DNA from: an uncultured Rhizobiaceae bacterium
GTDB lineage: Bacteria > Pseudomonadota > Alphaproteobacteria > Rhizobiales > Rhizobiaceae
Direction: 5' to 3'
DNA: 64,000 nt
Assembly: GCA_951813045.1 (NCBI GenBank)
Contig: CATOTF010000002.1
Coordinates: forward strand, 4,278,001 to 4,342,000
In this document: positions 50,223 to 60,411 of the stretch, in pieces
How positions within the stretch are numbered: position 1 is the first letter of the stretch
Layout of the letters: every line of letters starts with the position of its first letter
Notes under the pieces: generated by a model
Seen by the model: the letters and a program-made list of their open reading frames with translations, nothing else
The model's database searches: none
What the model was told of the DNA's origin: nothing
Made by a program: the position numbers and the translations under genes

Positions 50223-50438
50223 GACTAGAAATTTCCTAATGGAGCAGAAAGACCTGTTGATCTATCTTTGTGCTACTGGCTGACGGAAATGACATAATTT
50301 CGCGCCGCCCCATTATTCCTCAGCTGATTTCGATTTGAGCAGTTACAAAGTATTCGGACTCCCAAACACTCAAGAGTGATTAATGGTGTGGGGCACTGAT
50401 ATTGCGCGCGATCAAATTCCACGACACTAAAGACAGTG

Positions 50439-50933
50439 ATGAACATCTATTCGTTAGGGATGGAGCTAAAATTGCCCAAAAACTTCGCCACATATGCCCG
50501 ATTGATGGCCAATCCATTCTTAGCGTTAGCGGTTGTTGTAGGTATATTTCTGAGCACCCCCGACGCTGCATTTGCCGCCGAAAAACCTTATAACGGTCGC
50601 GCAAGTGCACCCAAAGCCTATTCTTTGGCGAAAGAGAATACCGTCGAATTGATTGATATTCGGCGGCCATCGGAATGGCGGACAACGGGCGTTGGAAAAG
50701 GCGCCCACCGGATAAGCATGCATCAATCGGGGTTTATCAACAAAATAGACAGGCTAACGGGCGGCGACCGTTCCAAGCCAATTGCGTTGATCTGCGCGCG
50801 TGGAAATCGTTCAGCACGTATGAAAGCCAAACTAAACTCGCTTGGGTTTACAAATGTTATCAATGTTTCTGAAGGCATGCTGGGTTCAAAGGCAGGTCCG
50901 GGGTGGTTAAAACGCAAACTACCAACCAGATAA
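50439..50933 (+). CDS. Exported rhodanese-domain protein
   Basis: About 164 aa: a signal peptide (PFLALAVVVGIFLSTPDAAFA) followed by one rhodanese domain with VELIDIRRPSEWRTTGV and the active-site loop LICARGNRSARM, in which the sulfur-carrying Cys is present. The start is uncertain: ATG 50439, ATG 50460, or TTG 50472, which has GGAG six bases upstream. Periplasmic sulfur transfer or thiol/cyanide detoxification is inferred. It precedes an exported YHS protein and an exported hydrolase, all with short spacers (about 30 bp), so probably one operon. Confidence 0.85.
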   Translation: MNIYSLGMELKLPKNFATYARLMANPFLALAVVVGIFLSTPDAAFAAEKPYNGRASAPKAYSLAKENTVELIDIRRPSEWRTTGVGKGAHRISMHQSGFINKIDRLTGGDRSKPIALICARGNRSARMKAKLNSLGFTNVINVSEGMLGSKAGPGWLKRKLPTR

Positions 50934-50964
50934 GCAGATAATTTATTATTCGAAGGTTATCATC

Positions 50965-51426
50965 ATGAAGAGTTTCATTACTTTCACAGTTCTCGCATTG
51001 ATTATAGGGCTTATCAGCCCAAACGCCGGTTTAGCGAAATCCCCTGTCCCGCAATTAAACCTGTCGAACTCCGGGCTTGCGCTTCGTGGGTATGATCCTG
51101 TTGCATATTTTACTTTGGGGAAACCAACCAAGGGAAAGCGCGATATCTCGGTCAAAAACAGCGGCGGAACCTACTATTTTGCATCGCAAAATAATAAGGA
51201 CCGGTTTCTGCAAAACCCGACAAAATTTTTACCTCAATACGGTGGTTATTGTGCGTATGGCACTGCGGTCAAAAACAAGGTCGATGGCGACCCTAGGATT
51301 TGGCACATCGTAAATGGCAAACTCTACTTCAATATAACAAGATCTGTTGACCGCACATGGAAGCGCAACACGAACGGTTACATCAAAAAGGCCAATCGTA
51401 ATTGGCCAAAACTCAAAAACCGTTGA
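50965..51426 (+). CDS. Exported YHS-domain protein
   Basis: 153-aa protein with a signal peptide (FTVLALIIGLISPNAGLA) and a YHS domain: ALRGYDPVAYFTLGKPTKG, TYYFASQNNKDRFLQNPTKFLPQYGGYCAYGTAV, the typical DPVAYF ... YGGYCAYG pattern. The C-terminal part is basic. YHS proteins are suspected metal-binding modules; function unknown. Second YHS protein in the window (the first, at 5613, lacks a signal). Middle gene of the rhodanese-YHS-hydrolase group. Confidence 0.88.
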   Translation: MKSFITFTVLALIIGLISPNAGLAKSPVPQLNLSNSGLALRGYDPVAYFTLGKPTKGKRDISVKNSGGTYYFASQNNKDRFLQNPTKFLPQYGGYCAYGTAVKNKVDGDPRIWHIVNGKLYFNITRSVDRTWKRNTNGYIKKANRNWPKLKNR

Positions 51427-51455
51427 TTTAAATTTCGATAACACAAGGAAGCCTC

Positions 51456-52190
51456 ATGCCTCGATTTTTCCTAAATCTTTTCAGAGGTTTTATCTGTTTA
51501 CTTACATTCGTGGGGGCGGTGCATGCCGAAACGGTGCATTTTAATGCAACCGATGGCTTGCAAATTACCGCTGATCTACAAAAACCTGATAAAAAAGCAG
51601 AAGCTGCAATTGTGTTGTTTCATATGGCAGGTGCAAGCCGCGGAGAGTATAAAGAGATCGCCAAAAGGTTGAACCGTATGGGCTATATAACGCTGGCTGT
51701 CGACCAGCGGTCCGGCAGGCAATCCAATGGTATTATTAATGAAACGGCAAAACGTGCAGAACGCAAGCTTGGATATCAGGCTGCGATACCGGACTTGGAA
51801 GCGGCAAGTGCTTGGGCCCGTAAGAACATTGATGTGGACCGTATTGCGGTTATCGGCTCGTCTTACTCAGCAGCACTCGTGCTCGTTTTGGCCGGGCAGG
51901 ACCGCCAATTTGCTGACGCGGTGATGTCGTTTTCACCGGGTGAATATTTTTCTGACCGCAAGTTGGTCCGCAAAAATGCAAAAGATATAAAGGTGCCCGT
52001 TTTCATCACATCCGCACGCAATGAAACACGTCAATGGAAGAATTTTCCAAAGGGCATAAGCAGCCCGGTAGTGGCCTTTATTCCCAAGGGACGAGGCAGG
52101 CATGGTGCCTCCGCGCTGGTATCAAAAGACGCTTCAGAATACTGGAGTGCGCTGGATAGTTTTCTATCAAAGTATTTTCAACCGAGTTGA
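51456..52190 (+). CDS. Exported alpha/beta hydrolase (dienelactone hydrolase-like)
   Basis: 244-aa secreted hydrolase: signal peptide ending GAVHA-ETVHF, then AEAAIVLFHMAGASRGEYKEIAKRL, nucleophile elbow VIGSSYSAAL, acidic residue region PVFITSARNETRQW, and catalytic His in GRGRHGASAL. Substrate unknown. Thirty bases after the YHS gene with AAGGAAG upstream. Confidence 0.87.
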   Translation: MPRFFLNLFRGFICLLTFVGAVHAETVHFNATDGLQITADLQKPDKKAEAAIVLFHMAGASRGEYKEIAKRLNRMGYITLAVDQRSGRQSNGIINETAKRAERKLGYQAAIPDLEAASAWARKNIDVDRIAVIGSSYSAALVLVLAGQDRQFADAVMSFSPGEYFSDRKLVRKNAKDIKVPVFITSARNETRQWKNFPKGISSPVVAFIPKGRGRHGASALVSKDASEYWSALDSFLSKYFQPS

Positions 52191-52402
52191 GCCTCAGTCC
52201 AGACATGATGAGCATATCCTGATTTGTGTATCCCAGATTTAGATGTAACTCGTCTTGTCCGTTGGCCGGAATGATGTAATTCGCCACTCGGTACGGTAAA
52301 CAAAGCCTTTATTGGCACCACTAAATTTACCAATAAAATTAGAATAATTGGAATTATTTTTTGCCATTCTATCCTCTCTTTGGGGAAAGAACTGGCAAAA
52401 CA

Positions 52403-53854
52403 ATGAATGATACGATCAATAGTATAGACGCAGATTTACCGCTTTGCGTGGATCTTGACGGAACGCTTATCCGCACGGATATGCTTTTTGAAGCTCTTTG
52501 TCTTCTCGTGCGTCGGATGCCATTGGTGATATTCCTGCTGCCTTTTTGGCTGTATCGCGGCAAAGCTTATATGAAAGCCAGAATTGCGGAAAAAGTAACA
52601 CCGGATGCCGCCCTTCTTCCCTATAACAAGGATGTTCTGGACTGGCTGCTGCGCGAGAAATTAAACGGCCGCAGCATCATCCTCGCCACCGCCTCGCATC
52701 AATCCTATGCCCAGTCAGTTGCTCAGCACCTTGGGCTGTTTGATGGCGTCGAAGCTTCGGACGATAGTACAAATCTTCGATCCCAGACGAAGGCTGACCG
52801 ACTTACTCACGAGTTCGGAGAATATGGATTCGACTATGTTGGAAATTCACGCGCGGATTATTCCGTTTGGGAAAAAGCGAGGAATGCCTATGTCGTTGGA
52901 GATGAACCAGCTGCCCAAAAGTATCTGACGCGTCTAAATGCTTATCGTATTGAAAAGCCTGCGCCGGTCGTTCCGAGGTGGAAATTGTGGTTCAAGGCGA
53001 TTCGTGTTCACCAATGGCTCAAGAATACACTTTTGTTTGTGCCTTCGATTTTGGCATCCCGTTATTTCGAACTCGATACTTTGGTCAATCTTGGATTGGC
53101 ATTCATAGCGTTTAGTTTTTGCGCGTCGTCAGTCTATTTAACGAATGATCTGGTGGATATTGAAGTAGATCGAAAACACCCAACAAAACGCAATCGACCA
53201 ATCGCGTCAGGTCAACTTTCGGTTCCAGATGCGGTGTTGGGCGCATTGGCACTCCTATGTTGCAGCACATGGATCGCACTGCTTCTCCCCATGCAATTCT
53301 CTTTGATCTTGTTACTTTATTTCGTCATTACGTGCGGTTACTCGCTTATCTTAAAACGTCTTTTATTGATTGACGTTTTGACCCTTGCCGGCCTGTTCAC
53401 AATTCGGGTGCTCGCTGGTGCCGCCGCAGTGGGCGGTGAGCTCTCTACCTGGCTGTTGGCCTTTTGCATGTTCTTCTTCCTGAGCCTTGCACTGGTCAAA
53501 CGTTTTGTTGAACTCGATGGGCGTCAGGATGAGGCAGGGCGCTTACACACCGGTCGAGGGTATCAATCACGGGATCTGGAAACCCTAAGCCAGGGAGGGA
53601 TGGCATCAGGATTTGCAGCCGTGGTTGTATTGGCACTGTTTATCGATTCCCCCCAAATAACTGAAAATTATGCCAGGCCGGAAGTAATCTGGCTGGTTTG
53701 CCCGCTCGTCCTTTATCTGATCTTCCGTATCTGGATCCTTGCGCGACGTAAGGAGATGAATGATGACCCTGTTGTGTTCCTGATGACCGACTGGCGAAGC
53801 CAGATCATGGTGGCGGCTGGCGCCACGACCATGATTATTTCACAAATAATGTAA
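52403..53854 (+). CDS. HAD-UbiA fusion prenyltransferase (DPPR synthase/NoeC-like)
   Basis: 483-aa two-domain protein. Residues about 1-200 are a HAD phosphatase domain (LCVDLDGTLIRTDML, ILATASHQSYAQ, YVGNSRADYSVW); the rest is a polytopic UbiA prenyltransferase with the metal motif NDLVDIEVDRKHPTKRNRPIASG. UbiA members of this type move a phosphorylated pentose or sugar onto polyprenyl phosphate (mycobacterial UbiA/DPPR synthase; NoeC of Azorhizobium Nod-factor arabinosylation). The fused HAD domain would supply the 5-phosphate removal step. First gene of the operon, with the DprE1-like oxidase next. The ATG at 52403 begins the HAD domain; the frame extends to 52361. Confidence 0.88.
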   Translation: MNDTINSIDADLPLCVDLDGTLIRTDMLFEALCLLVRRMPLVIFLLPFWLYRGKAYMKARIAEKVTPDAALLPYNKDVLDWLLREKLNGRSIILATASHQSYAQSVAQHLGLFDGVEASDDSTNLRSQTKADRLTHEFGEYGFDYVGNSRADYSVWEKARNAYVVGDEPAAQKYLTRLNAYRIEKPAPVVPRWKLWFKAIRVHQWLKNTLLFVPSILASRYFELDTLVNLGLAFIAFSFCASSVYLTNDLVDIEVDRKHPTKRNRPIASGQLSVPDAVLGALALLCCSTWIALLLPMQFSLILLLYFVITCGYSLILKRLLLIDVLTLAGLFTIRVLAGAAAVGGELSTWLLAFCMFFFLSLALVKRFVELDGRQDEAGRLHTGRGYQSRDLETLSQGGMASGFAAVVVLALFIDSPQITENYARPEVIWLVCPLVLYLIFRIWILARRKEMNDDPVVFLMTDWRSQIMVAAGATTMIISQIM

Positions 53855-53858
53855 TCCA

Positions 53859-55289
53859 ATGGCGGTTAAAACAGATTCCTGGGGGCGCATCGATCGCCGC
53901 CATCGTATTTCAAAACCTTTCGATCCGAATGAAGTTTTGCGACAAAAATCATGGTTACCTTTTGGTAATGGGCGCTCCTATGGAGATGTTTGTCACAATG
54001 ATTCAGGTGTACTTCTGCAGTCAGGTGGCGATGATTCAATCATAGCATTTAATGAGGATACCGGTCTGTTGCGCGCCCAAAGCGGGTTACTTTTGCGCGC
54101 CCTGCTGATCTATCTGGCGAATAAAAAATGGTTCCCCCCCGTCGTCCCCGGCACTCAATTTGTAACGCTTGGTGGAGCGTTGGCAAATGACATTGACGGA
54201 AAAAACCACGGGAAAATGGGTACATTTGGTCAGCATGTGCGGAGTTTTGTATTGCACCGTTCCGATGGTTCCACGCTAAAATGCTCCCAAAAGGAAAACC
54301 GCAGGCTGTTTGAAGCGACAATCGGCGGTATGGGATTGACCGGATATGTGAGTGAAATTGAATTAGCGCTTATGCCTGTAGCGTCCCATTGGGTGGCATC
54401 GAAGAACATCCCGTTCCGGAATTTGGCTGAATTCTTCAATGAAAATTCCAGACAGGAAACCGCCAACCATTACAATGTAGCCTGGATTGATTCATTGGCG
54501 ACAGGCGACAATCTGGGCCGTGGTGTCATGATGGTGGGAAATCATACGGACCGCGAGAAATCCCCACGATATGCGATGCCGAGACTCTCGGTACCGTTTA
54601 CCCCACCAGTTCCATTGGTGAGTGGAGTTCCGTTGCGCTTATTCAACAACGCTTATCGTTGGTCGAAATCGAGGGTGCGTAATGATACGGTTACTACCCC
54701 CCAGAGCTTTTTCTTCCCCCTTGATGCATTAGGCCATTGGAACCGGCTTTATGGGCCAAGAGGCTTGCATCAGCATCAAAGTGCCATTCCCGAAACTGAT
54801 GCGGAAATGGTGGTCGAAAAGTTAATACGTACCAGTCAACAGGCCGGCGCGGGTTCATTTTTGACAGTGTTAAAACGTTTTGGCGCGGGCAATTCACCCG
54901 GTTTAATGTCATTTCCTCAACCCGGAATTACGCTCACCCTTGATTTCCCAAATCAGGGGGAGCGCACGGTTAATCTGTTGAACCAATTGGATGATATCAC
55001 AATTGCCGCGGGAGGGCGGGTCAATCCTTACAAGGACCAGCGCATGTCTCCCGCCACATTTCAAGCCGGATATCCCCAATGGGAACTGCTTGAGGAATTA
55101 CGCGATCCGCGGGCGAATTCGAACTTTTGGAAGCGTGTTACCAAACGTAGAATTGTGCAACCGCCCGCTATGGAATCAGGCTCCAGCACCCAACGCGTTA
55201 ACCAAGCCCGTAAGCAGGATGTTCAGAAAAACCCGGTAATTAACAAACTTGAGAAGGGTAGAAATGCCTTAAAAAGTGAATCATCATGA
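53859..55289 (+). CDS. DprE1-like FAD-dependent oxidase
   Basis: 476-aa FAD-binding oxidoreductase of the vanillyl-alcohol-oxidase fold: PFGNGRSYGDVCHND in the FAD loop, PVVPGTQFVTLGGALANDIDGKNHGKMGTFGQHVRSF (very close to the DprE1 pattern) and GGRVNPYKDQRM, containing the lysine equivalent to the DprE1 active-site Lys. DprE1 oxidises the 2'-OH of decaprenylphosphoryl-ribose. Four bases after the HAD-UbiA gene and overlapping the next, so clearly in the same operon. The last 45 residues are a hydrophilic extension. Confidence 0.88.
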   Translation: MAVKTDSWGRIDRRHRISKPFDPNEVLRQKSWLPFGNGRSYGDVCHNDSGVLLQSGGDDSIIAFNEDTGLLRAQSGLLLRALLIYLANKKWFPPVVPGTQFVTLGGALANDIDGKNHGKMGTFGQHVRSFVLHRSDGSTLKCSQKENRRLFEATIGGMGLTGYVSEIELALMPVASHWVASKNIPFRNLAEFFNENSRQETANHYNVAWIDSLATGDNLGRGVMMVGNHTDREKSPRYAMPRLSVPFTPPVPLVSGVPLRLFNNAYRWSKSRVRNDTVTTPQSFFFPLDALGHWNRLYGPRGLHQHQSAIPETDAEMVVEKLIRTSQQAGAGSFLTVLKRFGAGNSPGLMSFPQPGITLTLDFPNQGERTVNLLNQLDDITIAAGGRVNPYKDQRMSPATFQAGYPQWELLEELRDPRANSNFWKRVTKRRIVQPPAMESGSSTQRVNQARKQDVQKNPVINKLEKGRNALKSESS

Positions 55290-55744
55290 GTTATTTGCCT
55301 TTCATTCTATTTACTGTGTTTACTAATGCAGCAGCGCAATTGATGCTGAAGCAAGGCATGCTCACACTTGGTCCACTGGCAAATGAAGCGCCAACAAATG
55401 CGGCGTCGGTCATCATCATGGTGTTCCGGATCGTCTTTCATCCTTGGGTGTTTTTCGGCCTTTGCACATTTGTCGTATCGATGGTTTCGCACCTTTACGT
55501 TCTGTCGAAAGTTGAACTGTCTTTCGCTTACCCGTTTCTCAGTCTGGCTTATGTATTTGTCGCCGTGGCTGCCTGGCTGTGGTTTTCAGAAGACCTGAAC
55601 AGCTGGCGCATTTGGGGAATCGGTTTCATCTGCGTCGGTACGATTTTCATCGCCCAGGGCGGGGAAAAATCAACGGCGGTTTCACATAATAATCAATCTG
55701 AAGAAAATTCAGATGTTGCCATTCAAAAGGTATCAAACTCATGA
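55286..55744 (+). CDS. EmrE/ArnE-like small membrane protein (DMT superfamily)
   Basis: 152-aa protein with four membrane helices in the SMR/EamA style: FILFTVFTNAAAQLMLKQGML, WVFFGLCTFVVSMVSHLYVLSKVELSFAYPFLSLAYVFVAVAAWLWFSEDL, WGIGFICVGTIFIAQGG. ArnE/ArnF proteins of this type flip undecaprenyl-phosphate-linked aminoarabinose. In this operon it is the natural candidate for the lipid-linked sugar flippase. ATGA overlaps on both sides show translational coupling. Hydrophilic tail of about 30 residues. Confidence 0.88.
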   Translation: MSYLPFILFTVFTNAAAQLMLKQGMLTLGPLANEAPTNAASVIIMVFRIVFHPWVFFGLCTFVVSMVSHLYVLSKVELSFAYPFLSLAYVFVAVAAWLWFSEDLNSWRIWGIGFICVGTIFIAQGGEKSTAVSHNNQSEENSDVAIQKVSNS

Positions 55745-56751
55745 AGCATATTTTATTCGGGGGCGATGGATTCGTTGGCCGCATTCTTGCGGCTAAACTG
55801 GTCGCAGAAGGTGAGCAGGTCGTAGTCGCTGATATCAATAAAGGCGATTGCCCCCATTACGCAAAATGTGAATGGGCACATGTTGACGTAACGAAAAAGG
55901 AACAATTCGCCCGGGTGAAGATTGAGCCGCAGGACGCAGTTTACAATCTGTCGGCGAAAATGTTGTCTCCGATTGTCACACGGGCAGAACGCCATGATTT
56001 TTTCTGGCCCGTAAACTATCAAGGTACGGTCAATATTCTCAAGGCCATGAAGGCCGCTGGCGCATCGAATCTGGTTCATTTCACCACTGATATGATTTAC
56101 GGACACACGAAAACTGTACCCATGTATGAAGATCATCAGGTCGCGCCATTGGGAGAATATGGTGAAAGCAAACTGGAAACAGAACATCTTGCCAAGAAAT
56201 GGCGAGATGAACATGGGTTCAATATATCGCTTTTCCGGCCACGCCTGATTATCGGTCCCGGCCGTTTGGGAATTTTGGAAAAACTGTTCAAACTGGTGGA
56301 TTATAATCTGCCGGTTCCGATGATCGGTTCCGGGAAGAACCCCTATCAATTTATTTCAGTGTTTGATTGTGCCGATGCTGCCTATCTGGCCTGGAAGTCC
56401 GGTTTTCCCAATGAAGCCTATAACCTCGGTTCAACCAACCCGCCGTCCGTGCGTAAGTTGCTTGGCCGATTGGTCCAAGAGGCTGGTAGTAAATCGCTTC
56501 TTCTGCCAACTCCCGCTTGGGCTGTGAAGATGACACTGAACGCGTTGGATGCGATCAACATGCCCATCATGGACCCTGAGCAATATCTTATTGCAGACGA
56601 GGAATGTCTTCTAGATTGCTCCAAGGCTGAACGGGAATTGGGATGGTCTGCCAAATATTCAGACGACGATATGCTTGTTGCCGCCTACCGCGAGTACCGC
56701 GACGAAAAAGACCAAAAACACGAACTCCATCAAGCCAGAAGTGCCGCTTAA
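55741..56751 (+). CDS. NAD-dependent epimerase/dehydratase (extended SDR)
   Basis: 336-aa extended SDR: dinucleotide motif FGGDGFVGRILAAKL, VDVTKKEQF, LVHFTTDMIYGHTKTVPMYE and YGESK (catalytic Tyr/Lys), LFRPRLIIGPGRLG and YQFISVFDCADAAYLAW. It acts on a nucleotide-sugar or sugar substrate as epimerase, dehydratase or reductase. In the operon it could do the step that DprE2 performs in mycobacteria, or prepare the amino-acceptor sugar; family resemblance alone does not decide. Starts four bases before the previous stop. Confidence 0.88.
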   Translation: MKHILFGGDGFVGRILAAKLVAEGEQVVVADINKGDCPHYAKCEWAHVDVTKKEQFARVKIEPQDAVYNLSAKMLSPIVTRAERHDFFWPVNYQGTVNILKAMKAAGASNLVHFTTDMIYGHTKTVPMYEDHQVAPLGEYGESKLETEHLAKKWRDEHGFNISLFRPRLIIGPGRLGILEKLFKLVDYNLPVPMIGSGKNPYQFISVFDCADAAYLAWKSGFPNEAYNLGSTNPPSVRKLLGRLVQEAGSKSLLLPTPAWAVKMTLNALDAINMPIMDPEQYLIADEECLLDCSKAERELGWSAKYSDDDMLVAAYREYRDEKDQKHELHQARSAA

Positions 56752-56800
56752 CCAGCCACAAAACAAAAATTATTGATGGCTCATACAATTGAAAGACACG

Positions 56801-58285
56801 ATGATGTTTGGATTGAAAAAATTAAAAAAACCGACCCGCGTAAAGCATGTGAAGTCATCCGTGGAAGCACCTTCAATTGCGCCCGAACTCACCCATCCGA
56901 CCTTGCTATCGGTTGAAGAAAGTAAAAATCTGCCGATCGATCAGATCGCAGAGCTTTTTAAACGACATCTCAATCCTGGCCAGTATCATTTCATGAAACT
57001 GCTGGGGTTTCACAAGATCAAAATCGATAGCGCCGAGGGCGTTTGGTACAAAGACCAAAATGGCCGCCAAATTCTCGATTTCTTCGGCGGATTTGGTTCC
57101 TTATCCCTTGGCCATAACCACCCAAGAGTCCTGGATGCCCGTAAGAAATTTCAGGACGAAAACCGCCATGAAATTGCGATGGCATTTTTGTCACAATACG
57201 CCGCAGCTCTCGCTCACAACCTGGCAGCAATCGCACCTGGTGATCTCGACATGGTATTTTTGGGTTCGTCCGGATCTGAAGCCATGGAAGCCGCGTTAAA
57301 AGTGGCTGAGCGTGCACAAGGGCCCGGAAGGTCAAAAGTCCTTTATGCAGAAAATTCATTTCACGGTAAAACAAAAGGCGTTTTGTCGATTACGGATTCT
57401 GATCTTTATCAATCCGAATTTGACCTGTTGGACAGGAAGGTGAAAGTTCCATTTGGCGACCTTATCGCCATTCGAAATACTCTGGAATCTGACCCGGAAA
57501 TAGGAATAGTCTGTCTGGAAACTATCCAGGGCGGCGGCGGTATCATTGAAGCGCCCGCCGAATTTTGGATCGGACTTCGCGCCCTGTGTGATGAAAAAAA
57601 TGTCCTTTGGATCGCCGATGAAGTGCAGTCCGGTACTGGCCGATCCGGCAGGTTCTTCGCGTTTGAACACTACGGCGTCGTGCCGGACGTAACCGCGCTG
57701 GCCAAATCTTTAGGCGGCGGCAAAACTGCAATGGCTGCGATGATCGCCCGCCGTGAAATCTATATGAAAGCCTACGGAAAACCCGCTACAGCGCTCATTC
57801 ACGGTCCAGCCACATTCGGCGGGATTGGTGAGGCCTGCATCACCGCAATCGAAACACTCAATGTGATGTACGATGAAAAACTGATGGAGAACGCCCATGA
57901 AGTGGGCGCTTACATGAAGGGGGAGCTTCAAAAACTACAGGTGAAATATCCAAGCCTTATCAAGGATGTGCGCGGACGCGGTTTCATGCTTGGTCTCGAG
58001 TTCCATGATTTTTCCCAAACTATGCCGATGGCCGTCCGTCCGGCGCTTAGCTTGCTGGATGAAAAACTAAAAGGCTCCTTATCGGGATTTATCGGTTCAT
58101 CGCTCCTGCGCGACCATAATGTTCTGGTGGCTTTTACCGAATACAACCGCAATGTTGTGCGTCTCCAACCGCCTCTCATAACGACATGTGAGCATGTTGA
58201 TATTTTCATCGCAGCTCTGGACAAAGTTCTGGCCGGTGGGGTTATCAGGATTGTGACAGATTTTATCAAATCACAGCGGGGGTAG
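56801..58285 (+). CDS. Class III aminotransferase
   Basis: 494-aa PLP enzyme with an extra N-terminal segment of about 70 residues. Motifs: VWYKDQNGRQILDFFGGFGSLSLGHNHPRV, FLGSSGSEAMEAALKVAERA, VLWIADEVQSGTGRSG, and the PLP lysine in ALAKSLGGGKTAM. It probably transfers an amino group to a keto-sugar or lipid-linked intermediate, or makes the amine donor used by this operon. It lies 49 bp after the SDR gene. The frame opens with TTG at 56789; ATG 56801 is preferred. Confidence 0.9.
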   Translation: MMFGLKKLKKPTRVKHVKSSVEAPSIAPELTHPTLLSVEESKNLPIDQIAELFKRHLNPGQYHFMKLLGFHKIKIDSAEGVWYKDQNGRQILDFFGGFGSLSLGHNHPRVLDARKKFQDENRHEIAMAFLSQYAAALAHNLAAIAPGDLDMVFLGSSGSEAMEAALKVAERAQGPGRSKVLYAENSFHGKTKGVLSITDSDLYQSEFDLLDRKVKVPFGDLIAIRNTLESDPEIGIVCLETIQGGGGIIEAPAEFWIGLRALCDEKNVLWIADEVQSGTGRSGRFFAFEHYGVVPDVTALAKSLGGGKTAMAAMIARREIYMKAYGKPATALIHGPATFGGIGEACITAIETLNVMYDEKLMENAHEVGAYMKGELQKLQVKYPSLIKDVRGRGFMLGLEFHDFSQTMPMAVRPALSLLDEKLKGSLSGFIGSSLLRDHNVLVAFTEYNRNVVRLQPPLITTCEHVDIFIAALDKVLAGGVIRIVTDFIKSQRG

Positions 58286-58291
58286 ATCGAC

Positions 58292-59479
58292 ATGCAATCG
58301 CCGTTGCCGGCTGATCGGATCTGGTTTGCAGTTGTTCAATCGGTCGGGATTGAGCGATGCAAACGAGGCCTGGTGTGGCTTTGCGGGATCGGCTTTGCAC
58401 TGTTTGTCGTCGGGTTGACCCTGTTGGCAATAGCAATGCCGGAATACCCATTTGATCTTGTGGCTTATATCAAGTCTGCATTGATACAATCAGGGATTGA
58501 TGTCGACACTGCCCATCAACAGGCTTGGGAAAGTGTAAAGTCGACTGTTTCTGCCGCGGAATTTGAGACCCTGTCACAGGGCGACGCCTACCGTATGAAG
58601 CAGTCAAGTGACCCTTCAGCCTTTGCGACAATCCTCCCCCTTTATCAGGTCAAAATCGGCTATATCGCTTTGTTGAACTTGGCTCAATCCGCTCTGCCCA
58701 TGGTGAAACTTGCGTTTTTGGCAAATTATGTGGCCGGTTTGGCAATTGGTATTCTGACGTTGATCTGGATGATGCGTGGCAAGACACTCATGGTTGCGCC
58801 CGCAATTGCCGCTCTTCTGTTGCTAACACAATATTTCGAACAGATACGGTCACCGTCACCGGATATTCTTGCATCCGCTCTGATTCTCGGTGGCATCATG
58901 CTCTGGATGGTTAAACGGGATTGGGCGGCAAATACTTTGTGGCTTGCTGCTTTCCTGTTCAGACCCGATACATTGCTTCTGCTATTTGCCGTCGTGATCG
59001 CGAATGTTTTGTTTCGACAACGCCGGATTCCTGCATTGCTCGCCTTTGCAACCGCCATAGGCCTGTCAATCGTGATACAGAGCACGATGGATCATCCCGG
59101 CTGGTGGGTCCATTATTGGTTTTCGACGGTTTCGCTGCTACCGACGTTAGAGGGATTTGATCCGGGCTTCTCACTATTTGCCTGGGCAAAGGGTCAGGCG
59201 CGCGGGGTCTATATGGCGTTGTTTGAGTTCAACTGGATCGCGGTGTTTGCTTTATTAGCCAGTTTTACCGCCTGGCTTTCATATCAAGGGAATAAATTCT
59301 CGCCGCGCCAACAGGCCGCGCTGGCTGTGTTTGCCATGACGATCAGTGGGAAGTTTATCCTGTTCCCGCTCCCTGACGATCGGCTTTACAGTATATTCCT
59401 GCTGGCAGCTGCGTTGGTTTTATCGGATGTCTGTCTAAAGCAAAAAATGTATTCGGAAAATAAGCTAAACCCGGTTTAG
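58292..59479 (+). CDS. Polytopic membrane protein, GT-C glycosyltransferase-like
   Basis: 395-aa integral membrane protein with roughly ten hydrophobic segments. After the first (GIGFALFVVGLTLLAIAM) comes a large periplasmic-type loop (about residues 55-110) with acidic residues, the topology of GT-C enzymes that use polyprenyl-phosphate sugars. No exact GT-C family can be named. It lies 6 bp after the aminotransferase gene and ends the operon before a strong terminator, so it may be the final transferase of the pathway. Confidence 0.75.
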   Translation: MQSPLPADRIWFAVVQSVGIERCKRGLVWLCGIGFALFVVGLTLLAIAMPEYPFDLVAYIKSALIQSGIDVDTAHQQAWESVKSTVSAAEFETLSQGDAYRMKQSSDPSAFATILPLYQVKIGYIALLNLAQSALPMVKLAFLANYVAGLAIGILTLIWMMRGKTLMVAPAIAALLLLTQYFEQIRSPSPDILASALILGGIMLWMVKRDWAANTLWLAAFLFRPDTLLLLFAVVIANVLFRQRRIPALLAFATAIGLSIVIQSTMDHPGWWVHYWFSTVSLLPTLEGFDPGFSLFAWAKGQARGVYMALFEFNWIAVFALLASFTAWLSYQGNKFSPRQQAALAVFAMTISGKFILFPLPDDRLYSIFLLAAALVLSDVCLKQKMYSENKLNPV

Positions 59480-59676
59480 TGCTCTAGCTCTATTTTCGCT
59501 CGCGGTAGTTTGGTCACGCCAAACACCTACGAGGATGCGGCGCAATGGCGCCGGGTTGCTCTTCGCAACCAGCGTTTCCACGTAAACGTGAAGCACCCTA
59601 ATACCATGCGTGTGTGTACATTGTGCGACGACGATACCCTGCCAATTTTCAAGACCCAGCCGCATTTTCATAAAAA

Positions 59677-59706
59677 AGCTCCCGGAAGCTCTTGCTGCCG
59701 GGGGCT
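59677..59706. terminator. Bidirectional terminator between convergent operons
   Basis: 13-bp stem AGCTCCCGGAAGC / GCTGCCGGGGGCT with one mismatch and one wobble, loop TCTT. Preceded by six A and followed by CATTTTAGTTTTT, so it can stop transcripts from both the 52.4-59.5 kb operon and the cytochrome P460 gene. The rest of 59480-59733 holds no supported gene. Confidence 0.85.
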
Positions 59707-59733: not shown

Positions 59734-60330
59734 CTACTTTGTATTGAGAATTGTATAGAATTTTGTGAAAACCATATCTTTTTGCGCGTTGTCGATATGA
59801 CATTGTGCGCAAGACTCAGTAGGAGCTGCTCCGGCACTCTCTGCATAAGGTGGAGCGTGGTGACCAAAGTTGAAATAGCCCCAATTCTGGCTATCAGCAA
59901 ATTTCTTAGAGTCTTTAACGGAAATATCGATACCGTTAAATGCAGCAGGGAAATAACCACGACCGGAAACTTCTGATCTTGAACCGTCTTCTTCCTGGGC
60001 TTCGTGAGTGAGCTGAAGCTCTTTCAAAAGAATAGTGCCTTCTGGGAACTCACCAGTTTCCTTATAAATTTTGAAAGCCGCAGGGTGCATGTAAACATTG
60101 TGGTATTCTGGGAATCCAGCAGCACCACCGTTCAAACCATTCGGTGTTAGCGGAGAACCGAGGTATACCCACTCACGATATCCTGTGGGTAGAACAAGTT
60201 TCCCGTCATCAGTCCACTTAGGCTTCCAATCCGGGTCGACTTCAGCTTTGGCTACACCACCGAACTGAGTTGATGCTAATGCGACCACAGCTGCAAAAGC
60301 AGATAGTGCAAATGTCGATCTCTTTTTCAC
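59734..60330 (-). CDS. Cytochrome P460 family protein, exported
   Basis: 198-aa periplasmic haem protein. Signal peptide SAFAAVVALASTQFGGVAKA, P460-type core (YREWVYLGSPLTPNGLNGGAAGFPEYHNVYMHPAAFKIYKETGEFPEGTILLKEL) and a C-terminal haem-binding CAQCH. Cytochromes P460 oxidise hydroxylamine or handle NO through a lysine-crosslinked haem. The start is GTG at 60330, with AGGAGG ten bases upstream; the longer frame to 60396 would cross that site. Divergent from AraC paralog 2, with 21-bp-spaced repeats in between. Confidence 0.9.
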   Translation of the reverse strand: MKKRSTFALSAFAAVVALASTQFGGVAKAEVDPDWKPKWTDDGKLVLPTGYREWVYLGSPLTPNGLNGGAAGFPEYHNVYMHPAAFKIYKETGEFPEGTILLKELQLTHEAQEEDGSRSEVSGRGYFPAAFNGIDISVKDSKKFADSQNWGYFNFGHHAPPYAESAGAAPTESCAQCHIDNAQKDMVFTKFYTILNTK

Positions 60331-60411
60331 TTTACCAATTCCTCCTGGTAAGATCATGCCAATCATGACCCTCTTAGAACTCTCCATTTTAATCAAGATA
60401 GGGCAACCGAA

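Follow-up and report, generated by a model that had tools for sequence, protein, structure and literature searches.

A conserved Rhizobiaceae operon pairing a DprE1-like oxidase with a class III aminotransferase, with a proposed role in lipid-linked amino-pentofuranose synthesis

The window analysed here is a 64,000-nucleotide stretch of DNA from an uncultured Rhizobiaceae bacterium (contig CATOTF010000002.1, positions 4,278,001 to 4,342,000), and is part of a large contig in a genome of 4.84 Mb. Near its end lies a six-gene operon encoding a HAD-UbiA fusion, a DprE1-like oxidase, an EmrE/ArnE-like small transporter, an extended short-chain dehydrogenase/reductase (SDR), a class III aminotransferase dependent on pyridoxal 5′-phosphate (PLP), and a membrane protein resembling glycosyltransferases of the C fold (GT-C). 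In the mycobacterial decaprenyl-phospho-arabinose pathway, which includes Rv3806c, DprE1 works with DprE2. The operon is conserved in Rhizobiaceae and beyond, and among the DprE1-bearing genomes sampled the aminotransferase and DprE2 form an either-or pattern. With a probability of about 0.58, we propose that the operon is for making and using an amino-pentofuranose linked to polyprenyl phosphate, the amine being added by the aminotransferase to the DprE1 product—most likely on C2, because the aminotransferase seems to occupy the place of DprE2. The six genes are as follows (stop codons included).

52403–53854, plus strand: HAD-UbiA fusion (ATG at 52403; the open reading frame (ORF) list begins at an upstream TTG, 52361)
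53859–55289, plus strand: DprE1-like FAD oxidase
55286–55744, plus strand: EmrE/ArnE-like small membrane transporter
55741–56751, plus strand: extended SDR
56804–58285, plus strand: class III PLP aminotransferase (alternative start TTG at 56789)
58292–59479, plus strand: GT-C-like membrane protein

All six ORFs are open on the plus strand, in the order and at the places assigned by an earlier sequence-only reading of the window. The tight packing described there (most genes overlapping or within 6 bp of each other) is true of four of the five junctions, which are 4-base overlaps or gaps of 4–6 bases; the widest junction, between the SDR and aminotransferase genes, measures 52 bases to the ATG and 37 to the TTG.

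Conservation of the operon and the partners of DprE1

A tblastn scan of genome contigs with the aminotransferase (E ≤ 1e-3) returned 437 stretches, of which the best 80 were examined; the named relatives are Rhizobiaceae and their neighbours (Mesorhizobium, Hoeflea, Rhizobium, Phyllobacterium, Nitratireductor, and others). In this gene-neighbourhood survey the UbiA, DprE1, EmrE, SDR, and aminotransferase genes stood together in 67 of the 80 loci, bearing out the earlier claim that the operon is kept as a unit in relatives, and 37 of these 67 also carried a homologue of the sixth gene. Three loci had no SDR gene (L080, L112, L119), three ended at a contig edge (L078, L131, L152), and seven had EmrE, SDR, and aminotransferase genes with no UbiA-DprE1 pair seen, one of which (L114) starts just before EmrE and is not judgeable. 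The EmrE gene was present in 78 of the 80; in the other two (L078, L152) the contig starts only within the SDR gene. Across the relatives' loci, identity to the window's proteins was 61–85% for the SDR, 65–84% for the aminotransferase, 47–61% for DprE1 (complete clusters), and 45–70% for UbiA. Restriction of the operon to the window's genus was ruled out, since it is spread across the order and one genome from beyond the order (L158) has it too.

Several variants of the cluster were seen. The 15.8-kb contig of G608 (L180) carries UbiA, DprE1, and aminotransferase genes with neither EmrE nor SDR; the cluster of G630 is without an SDR; G492 (L186/L187) combines UbiA-DprE1-EmrE-SDR with a DprE2-like gene that is not linked to them, and has no aminotransferase match; and in G305, outside the order, the genes are rearranged as EmrE-SDR-UbiA (301 residues, no HAD)-DprE1-aminotransferase. 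For the EmrE-SDR-aminotransferase loci without UbiA-DprE1, DprE1 was found elsewhere in all seven named genomes (in G486 as a part, at a contig end). Unlinked DprE1 genes are also present in G060 and G721, and distant homologues in G003 (39% identity), G051 (38%), and G056 (42%). DprE1 occurs in only 5 of the 66 relatives without the aminotransferase, and three chance finds would have a probability of about 4e-4, a rough figure. The ORF caller used on neighbourhoods is a rough one that assigns wrong frames in GC-rich DNA, and ortholog positions were taken from tblastn.

Partner genes were counted in two overlapping genome samples, a relatives set (n = 101) and an order set (n = 297), with E-value limits for the aminotransferase, SDR, and DprE1 of our own choosing. 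For DprE2-like genes the family NF005489 was chosen, on which three DprE2-like neighbours score 254–321 bits; the same three miss the curated DprE2 family (179–192 bits versus a cut-off of 250). In the relatives set, 40 genomes have DprE1 at E ≤ 1e-60; counting every match at E ≤ 1e-3 gives 79, the additional ones all lying above 1e-9. The SDR was found in 32 and the aminotransferase, with a limit of E ≤ 1e-120, in 35, each of which also has DprE1. Four genomes of this set (G070, G079, G094, G096) have a DprE2-like gene, in each case directly behind DprE1 and in none together with the aminotransferase. In the order set, 44 genomes have DprE1, with the aminotransferase in 14 and a DprE2-like gene in 29, all of them with DprE1 and with zero overlap. 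The DprE2-like gene lies no more than 150 bases from DprE1 in 28 of 29 cases, and the aminotransferase within 5 kb of DprE1 in 13 of 14. Over the union of the two sets, the 78 DprE1 genomes comprise 47 with the aminotransferase, 29 with a DprE2-like gene, none with both, and two with neither. Both partner forms occur within one genus (G566 and G735 versus G622).

No NF005489 match at E ≤ 1e-40 was found in the genome that carries the operon, nor in any of the 47 genomes with the aminotransferase, with 5–24 candidates scored per genome (5–8 in order-set searches, up to 24 in relatives-set searches). Furthermore, when one DprE2-like query was run against 135 loci of aminotransferase genomes, the best score was 44.7 bits, short of the limit of 100, and in the control for this query nine of nine loci passed, the query's own locus included. 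Several of these 135 loci, and of the 80 named loci, coincide with loci from other genome sets. Many order-set DprE1 matches were flagged with one or two internal stops; where inspected, these proved to be the natural end of the gene, with the match running beyond it. Genome G007 is 61% and G008 87% complete, and G096 is 8% contaminated.

On a tree of 49 DprE1s, hand-picked for spread from the 78 (four rows carry 10–43 residues past the stop), the partner label needs six changes, four of which are aminotransferase/DprE2 exchanges; three exchanges are left without the distant unlinked copies (G003, G051, G056), and two without G492 as well. The aminotransferase seems, from these comparisons, to stand where DprE2 stands elsewhere. 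The earlier claim that it adds an amine foreign to the mycobacterial pathway is thereby backed, no DprE2-like gene having been found and the two partners being mutually exclusive. We give even odds to the wider proposal that a class III aminotransferase replaced DprE2 behind DprE1 more than once, giving a polyprenyl-phospho-2-amino-2-deoxy-pentofuranose for a surface glycan in many Rhizobiaceae; this donor may be of ribo, arabino, xylo, or lyxo configuration, depending on stereochemistry and the SDR.

The two DprE1 genomes with neither partner, G059 and G653, have altered DprE1 motifs—NPAMD in G059, with the Lys lost, and NPYKT in G653, with the Lys kept and the following Asp lost—and long DprE1 branches (0.64 and 1.16, respectively, versus about 0.2–0.4 in adjoining relatives). 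No PRK08238 (HAD-UbiA family) match was found in G653. The PRK08238 match of G059 lies away from its DprE1, in a cluster (L197, 4899–15252) of a HAD-UbiA gene (38% identity), two extended SDRs, a small transporter of the multidrug-resistance type, and a 684-residue protein without a family; this cluster has the look of an ordinary three-component pentofuranose system.

The six proteins and the proposed pathway

The best curated family for the first protein is NCBIfam PRK08238, matched over its full length at 626.9 bits (cut-off 351); decaprenyl-phosphate phosphoribosyltransferase families rank next (160, 157, and 124 bits), under their own cut-offs. The quinone and haem UbiA families were not reached (haem o synthase 46.1 bits versus a cut-off of 210; proteobacterial UbiA 37.8 versus 275). 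Against solved structures, the mycobacterial decaprenylphosphoryl-5-phosphoribose (DPPR) synthase 8j8j came first (E 4e-27), with the best other UbiA enzyme at 5e-7, and the NDxxDxxxDRxHPTKRxRP motif of the UbiA part aligns with 8j8j without gaps. Thus, the grouping with quinone and haem prenyltransferases that would have spoken against the sequence-only reading did not appear. The Pfam HAD family alone scored 26.4 bits, slightly below its cut-off of 27. In 26 aligned HAD-UbiA proteins, the window's included, Asp17 and the UbiA residues N248, D249, D252, and D256 are invariant and Asp19, Lys130, and Asp152 nearly so; the HAD part in L072 is degenerate. The residue-conservation figures given for the different proteins rest on different sets of rows. 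The first gene is predicted, from these matches, to encode a HAD phosphatase joined to a polyprenyl-phosphate phosphoribosyltransferase, with both activities.

The second protein is matched by nine distinct solved DprE1 sequences (E 2e-52 to 2e-47). In the alignment with the solved DprE1s, its GKNH motif falls on theirs, and the Lys of NPYKDQ falls on that of YTAKD, a residue that we take to be the catalytic Lys418; K392 and D393 are nearly invariant across 35 DprE1-like sequences. The identity proposed earlier, with its FAD motif and Lys, agrees with these alignments, although the curated cut-off is not reached. The predicted role is oxidation of the 2′-hydroxyl of polyprenyl-phospho-ribose. 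The motif is NPYKD in 29 of the 31 DprE1s labelled as aminotransferase-linked and in four of seven unlinked ones, and Y[A/L/P][A/S]KD in eight with adjoining DprE2.

The EmrE-like protein scores 29.9 bits on EamA (cut-off 28.2) and is a predicted flippase or half-flippase. It misses the equivalog cut-offs of ArnF (53.3 bits versus 99) and ArnE (37.3 versus 92), so the comparison with ArnE/F is an analogy only. The SDR matches PF01370 at 118 bits, and its GGDGFVG motif and Y140xxxK144 are invariant in 28 sequences. Its model (predicted local distance difference test (pLDDT) 79) has UDP-galactose 4-epimerases as top Foldseek matches (E 8e-20), with dTDP-glucose 4,6-dehydratases also within the first 50. 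In six genomes with the aminotransferase (G008, G033, G608, G630, and those of L112 and L119), a whole-genome search at E ≤ 1e-20 found no such SDR, so amination seems to be independent of the SDR. By analogy with ORF13 of Citrobacter youngae O2, the SDR is probably an optional C3 epimerase.

The aminotransferase matches PF00202 at 287.5 bits. Its nearest curated family is PigE (361 bits, missing the cut-off of 850), putrescine aminotransferases also being near, and its nearest solved structures are 4ppm (named only "Aminotransferase", and presumably PigE) and the putrescine aminotransferase 4uox. Residues K301, D272, and H187 are invariant in 29 sequences, and K301 would, to judge from the family, bind PLP. 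Its predicted role is amination of a 2-keto sugar. HpnO is a class III aminotransferase too; a role in hopanoid amination was considered and discounted on gene context, since the aminotransferase gene keeps company with UbiA-DprE1.

The sixth protein has no family match in Pfam or curated-family searches. Its AlphaFold2 model (pLDDT 91.8, predicted template modelling score 0.89) gave as best Foldseek match ArnT with undecaprenyl phosphate (5f15; probability 1.00, E 0.013), followed by oligosaccharyltransferase and ALG9 entries, ArnT again, and later EmbB and PimE. The first seven matches are GT-C enzyme entries (probability 0.97–1.00, E 0.013–0.11), none reaching E ≤ 0.001. The GT-C-like label given to this gene earlier has no family support, but the predicted model carries a GT-C fold nearest to ArnT, and D55, after the first membrane helix, is invariant in 39 sequences; a periplasmic transferase of GT-C fold is predicted from the model. 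The sixth gene is the most variable member of the operon, with a recognisable homologue in 39 of the 80 named loci. Where it differs, other membrane proteins lie nearby: one in L051 matches PMT_2 above the cut-off, those in L180 and L184 have weak glycosyltransferase matches, and others have none.

In the proposed pathway, the HAD-UbiA protein would convert phosphoribosyl pyrophosphate (PRPP) and polyprenyl phosphate into polyprenyl-phospho-ribose-5-phosphate and then polyprenyl-phospho-ribose, the 2-hydroxyl of which the DprE1-like enzyme would oxidize to a 2-keto sugar. The aminotransferase would aminate this ketone to give polyprenyl-phospho-2-amino-2-deoxy-pentofuranose, at the point where mycobacteria reduce with DprE2. 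In most lineages the GalE-like SDR would invert one centre, most likely C3, as an optional step comparable to Citrobacter O1 versus O2. Finally, the EmrE-like protein would flip the donor, and the lineage-variable GT-C protein would move the sugar to an extracytoplasmic acceptor. We infer the catalytic steps from family membership and the exchange pattern, with genomic and structural support, and likewise the carbon aminated, the lipid, and the acceptor. The sequence-only reading is upheld and made more precise as to the carbon.

Alternative explanations

Several points weigh against the proposed pathway. The DprE1-like protein scores 281.6 bits on NF053785, the curated DprE1 family, and misses its cut-off of 500. 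The usual substrates of class III aminotransferases are terminal aldehydes or amines, and use of an internal ketone, as by BioA, is less common. G051 and G056 carry UbiA-EmrE-SDR-aminotransferase with no DprE1 in the cluster, their distant homologues (38% and 42%) lying in unrelated contexts; that these homologues belong to the pathway is assumed, and if they do not, DprE1 would not be essential for the aminotransferase. The aminotransferase is accompanied by DprE2-type motif letters in L180, in L158, and in the three distant copies, and NPYKD stands with DprE2 in G492; the DprE1 motif therefore follows descent, not partner. Related genomes are not independent, so that Fisher values overstate the certainty of the partner pattern, and the tree needs just two to four exchanges. 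Moreover, homologues of DprE2 or the aminotransferase could escape searches in which the best first-look candidates, 5–24 per genome, were scored.

The most serious of the other explanations, in our view an unlikely one, is that the SDR replaces DprE2, so that DprE1 and the SDR give lipid-linked arabinose and the aminotransferase acts elsewhere, for example on a C5 aldehyde to give a 5-amino sugar. Such a reaction would suit the preference of class III enzymes for terminal aldehydes; the SDR is encoded in the same operon, and it and the aminotransferase are the most conserved members (61–85% and 65–84% versus 47–61% for DprE1). However, DprE1 and the aminotransferase are both retained in the six genomes where the search found no SDR, and G492 combines the SDR with a DprE2-like gene without an aminotransferase, so that SDR and DprE2 are not plain alternatives. 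The aminotransferase and DprE2 were never seen together in the 78 DprE1 genomes, and the SDR model is closest to epimerases. We regard as slightly less probable still an explanation in which the product of the aminotransferase is a separate substituent, either an amine or an amino acid, DprE1 pairs with an unrecognised reductase, and the sugar is ordinary arabinose or ribose. The substrate of the aminotransferase is not readable from its nearest solved relatives, and the two genomes with a cluster but no DprE1 inside it fit this explanation. It leaves unexplained, however, why the aminotransferase was found only with DprE1 (47 of 47) and never with DprE2, as well as the adjacency of UbiA, DprE1, and aminotransferase genes in L180. 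A 3-amino sugar, with the SDR oxidizing C3 and the aminotransferase aminating it, seems very improbable: extended SDRs do proceed via keto intermediates, but an SDR of this kind was not found in six aminotransferase genomes, and DprE1 would be left without a clear role.

Related systems and genomic surroundings

Nearest among known systems is the one by which Citrobacter youngae O1/O2 adds pentofuranose with three components (Kelly et al. 2024, PMC11127046). According to that paper, the UbiA part of a HAD-UbiA protein transfers phosphoribose to a lipid analogue and a GT-C protein performs the transfer, both on biochemical evidence; a GalE-like SDR is responsible for a ribose-to-xylose change, as seen by mutant and complementation; the small transporter is proposed as the flippase; and DprE1/E2 homologues are named in arabinose systems (PMC11127046). 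HAD-UbiA, an EmrE/ArnE-like transporter, a GT-C protein, and a GalE-like SDR (optional in Citrobacter) are common to that system and the operon, whereas no DprE1 and no aminotransferase was found described for the Citrobacter clusters, the word "aminotransferase" being absent from the main text. All three components are recognisable in the operon at the level of sequence or model, as a phosphoribose synthase with a phosphatase domain, a transporter gene, and a GT-C fold. The new element is the apparent exchange of DprE2 for an aminotransferase; the phosphoribosyl-lipid, transporter, GT-C, and SDR set is already known.

With the mycobacterial pathway the operon shares a UbiA-type phosphoribosyltransferase and a DprE1 homologue with aligned Lys and GKNH. 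Unlike in mycobacteria, no DprE2-like match was found in the genome, a HAD domain stands in place of Rv3807c (whose role is taken from PMC11127046), and an aminotransferase and an SDR are added. In rhizobia, the noeCHOP/noeCNHOP genes of Azorhizobium and Rhizobium sp. IRBG74 serve Nod-factor arabinosylation with D-arabinofuranose, and the pertinent parts of the two reports relate noeC, noeH, and noeO to mycobacterial precursor genes (PMC2443382, PMC5080398). We read noeH as a DprE1 homologue and noeO as a DprE2 homologue. The noe system is likewise rhizobial; unlike in noe, no DprE2-like gene was found in the operon's genome. The noe arabinosylation genes offer a contrast to the proposed amino-pentose operon from inside one bacterial group. 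The 4-amino-4-deoxy-L-arabinose (Ara4N) pathway (ArnABCDEFT) is resembled in that the transporter is weakly ArnE/F-like and the GT-C model is nearest to ArnT. In that pathway, the amino sugar is made on UDP before transfer; the operon's machinery, unlike it, would start from PRPP on the lipid. Names of amino-pentofuranoses gave matches in the open literature solely through the word arabinosamine, which there is presumably a 4-amino sugar. No paper on such an operon or on a lipid-linked amino-pentose donor was found in the open-access literature searched, the nearest, PMC11127046, being without the aminotransferase.

If the proposal is true, an amino-pentofuranose joins the known lipid-linked sugar donors, having arisen by a modular one-enzyme exchange in a pathway targeted by drugs against tuberculosis. 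The proposal would also suggest that polyprenyl-phospho-ribose can undergo both C2 amination and C3 epimerisation, and it predicts that Mesorhizobium, Hoeflea, Phyllobacterium, and their relatives carry an as yet undescribed surface sugar, probably with a positive charge. What DprE1 does in Gram-negative genomes that have no DprE2 would become directly testable.

The signals flanking the operon are these.

52312–52339, plus strand: candidate sigma-70-type promoter TTGGCA-16-TAAAAT, 63 bases upstream of the first ATG
59538–59553: hairpin nearer to the operon, with a poorer T-run than the next
59687–59706, plus strand: T-tailed hairpin, probable terminator, between the operon and the convergent P460 gene

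The candidate promoter has 10 of 12 matches and is the best of 11 sites in the region; shuffles lead one to expect 13.4 sites, so it is not above chance. The "strong terminator" of the sequence-only reading stands in part: the 121 bases 3′ of the operon do fold strongly (z −3.06; 2 of 200 shuffles fold equally well), but no good T-run is found there, and the better T-tailed hairpin lies about 200 bases downstream. Terminator-like sites are not in excess in the region (13 found versus 12.0 expected in shuffles). The four neighbours scanned—three upstream and one downstream—included no nod gene, a search that did not extend to the remainder of the window. Directly upstream on the same strand, at 50436–52190 (plus), are tandem rhodanese, YHS-domain, and dienelactone-hydrolase-like genes, and a cytochrome P460 family gene (PF16694, 105 bits) at 59734–60396 (minus) is convergent with the operon.

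Other arrangements were seen in related genomes. In G291, an AT-rich 1.6-Mb genome of the same class, L159 (6967–10237, minus strand) has a row of EmrE-like (37%), SDR-like (38%), and 638-residue genes, the last without a Pfam match; no UbiA or DprE1 match was found in its 3.9-kb locus L157, and none was apparent among the L159 ORFs. G003, of the window's genus, has its distant UbiA-DprE1 pair (34 and 39% identity; L069, 9008–11736, minus strand) apart from EmrE-SDR-aminotransferase-GT-C, likely as a foreign pair replacing the original. In nine same-genus loci (L035–L043) and in L051, from another family of bacteria, the operon adjoins a gene family whose copy in L035 is Wzz-like; beside it lie a GH10-family gene in eight of the nine same-genus loci and a further unnamed family in seven. 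L176 of G003 resembles this neighbourhood by eye. The Wzz-like and GH10 neighbours in relatives suggest an exopolysaccharide as the acceptor, but the window's own copy of the operon has other neighbours.

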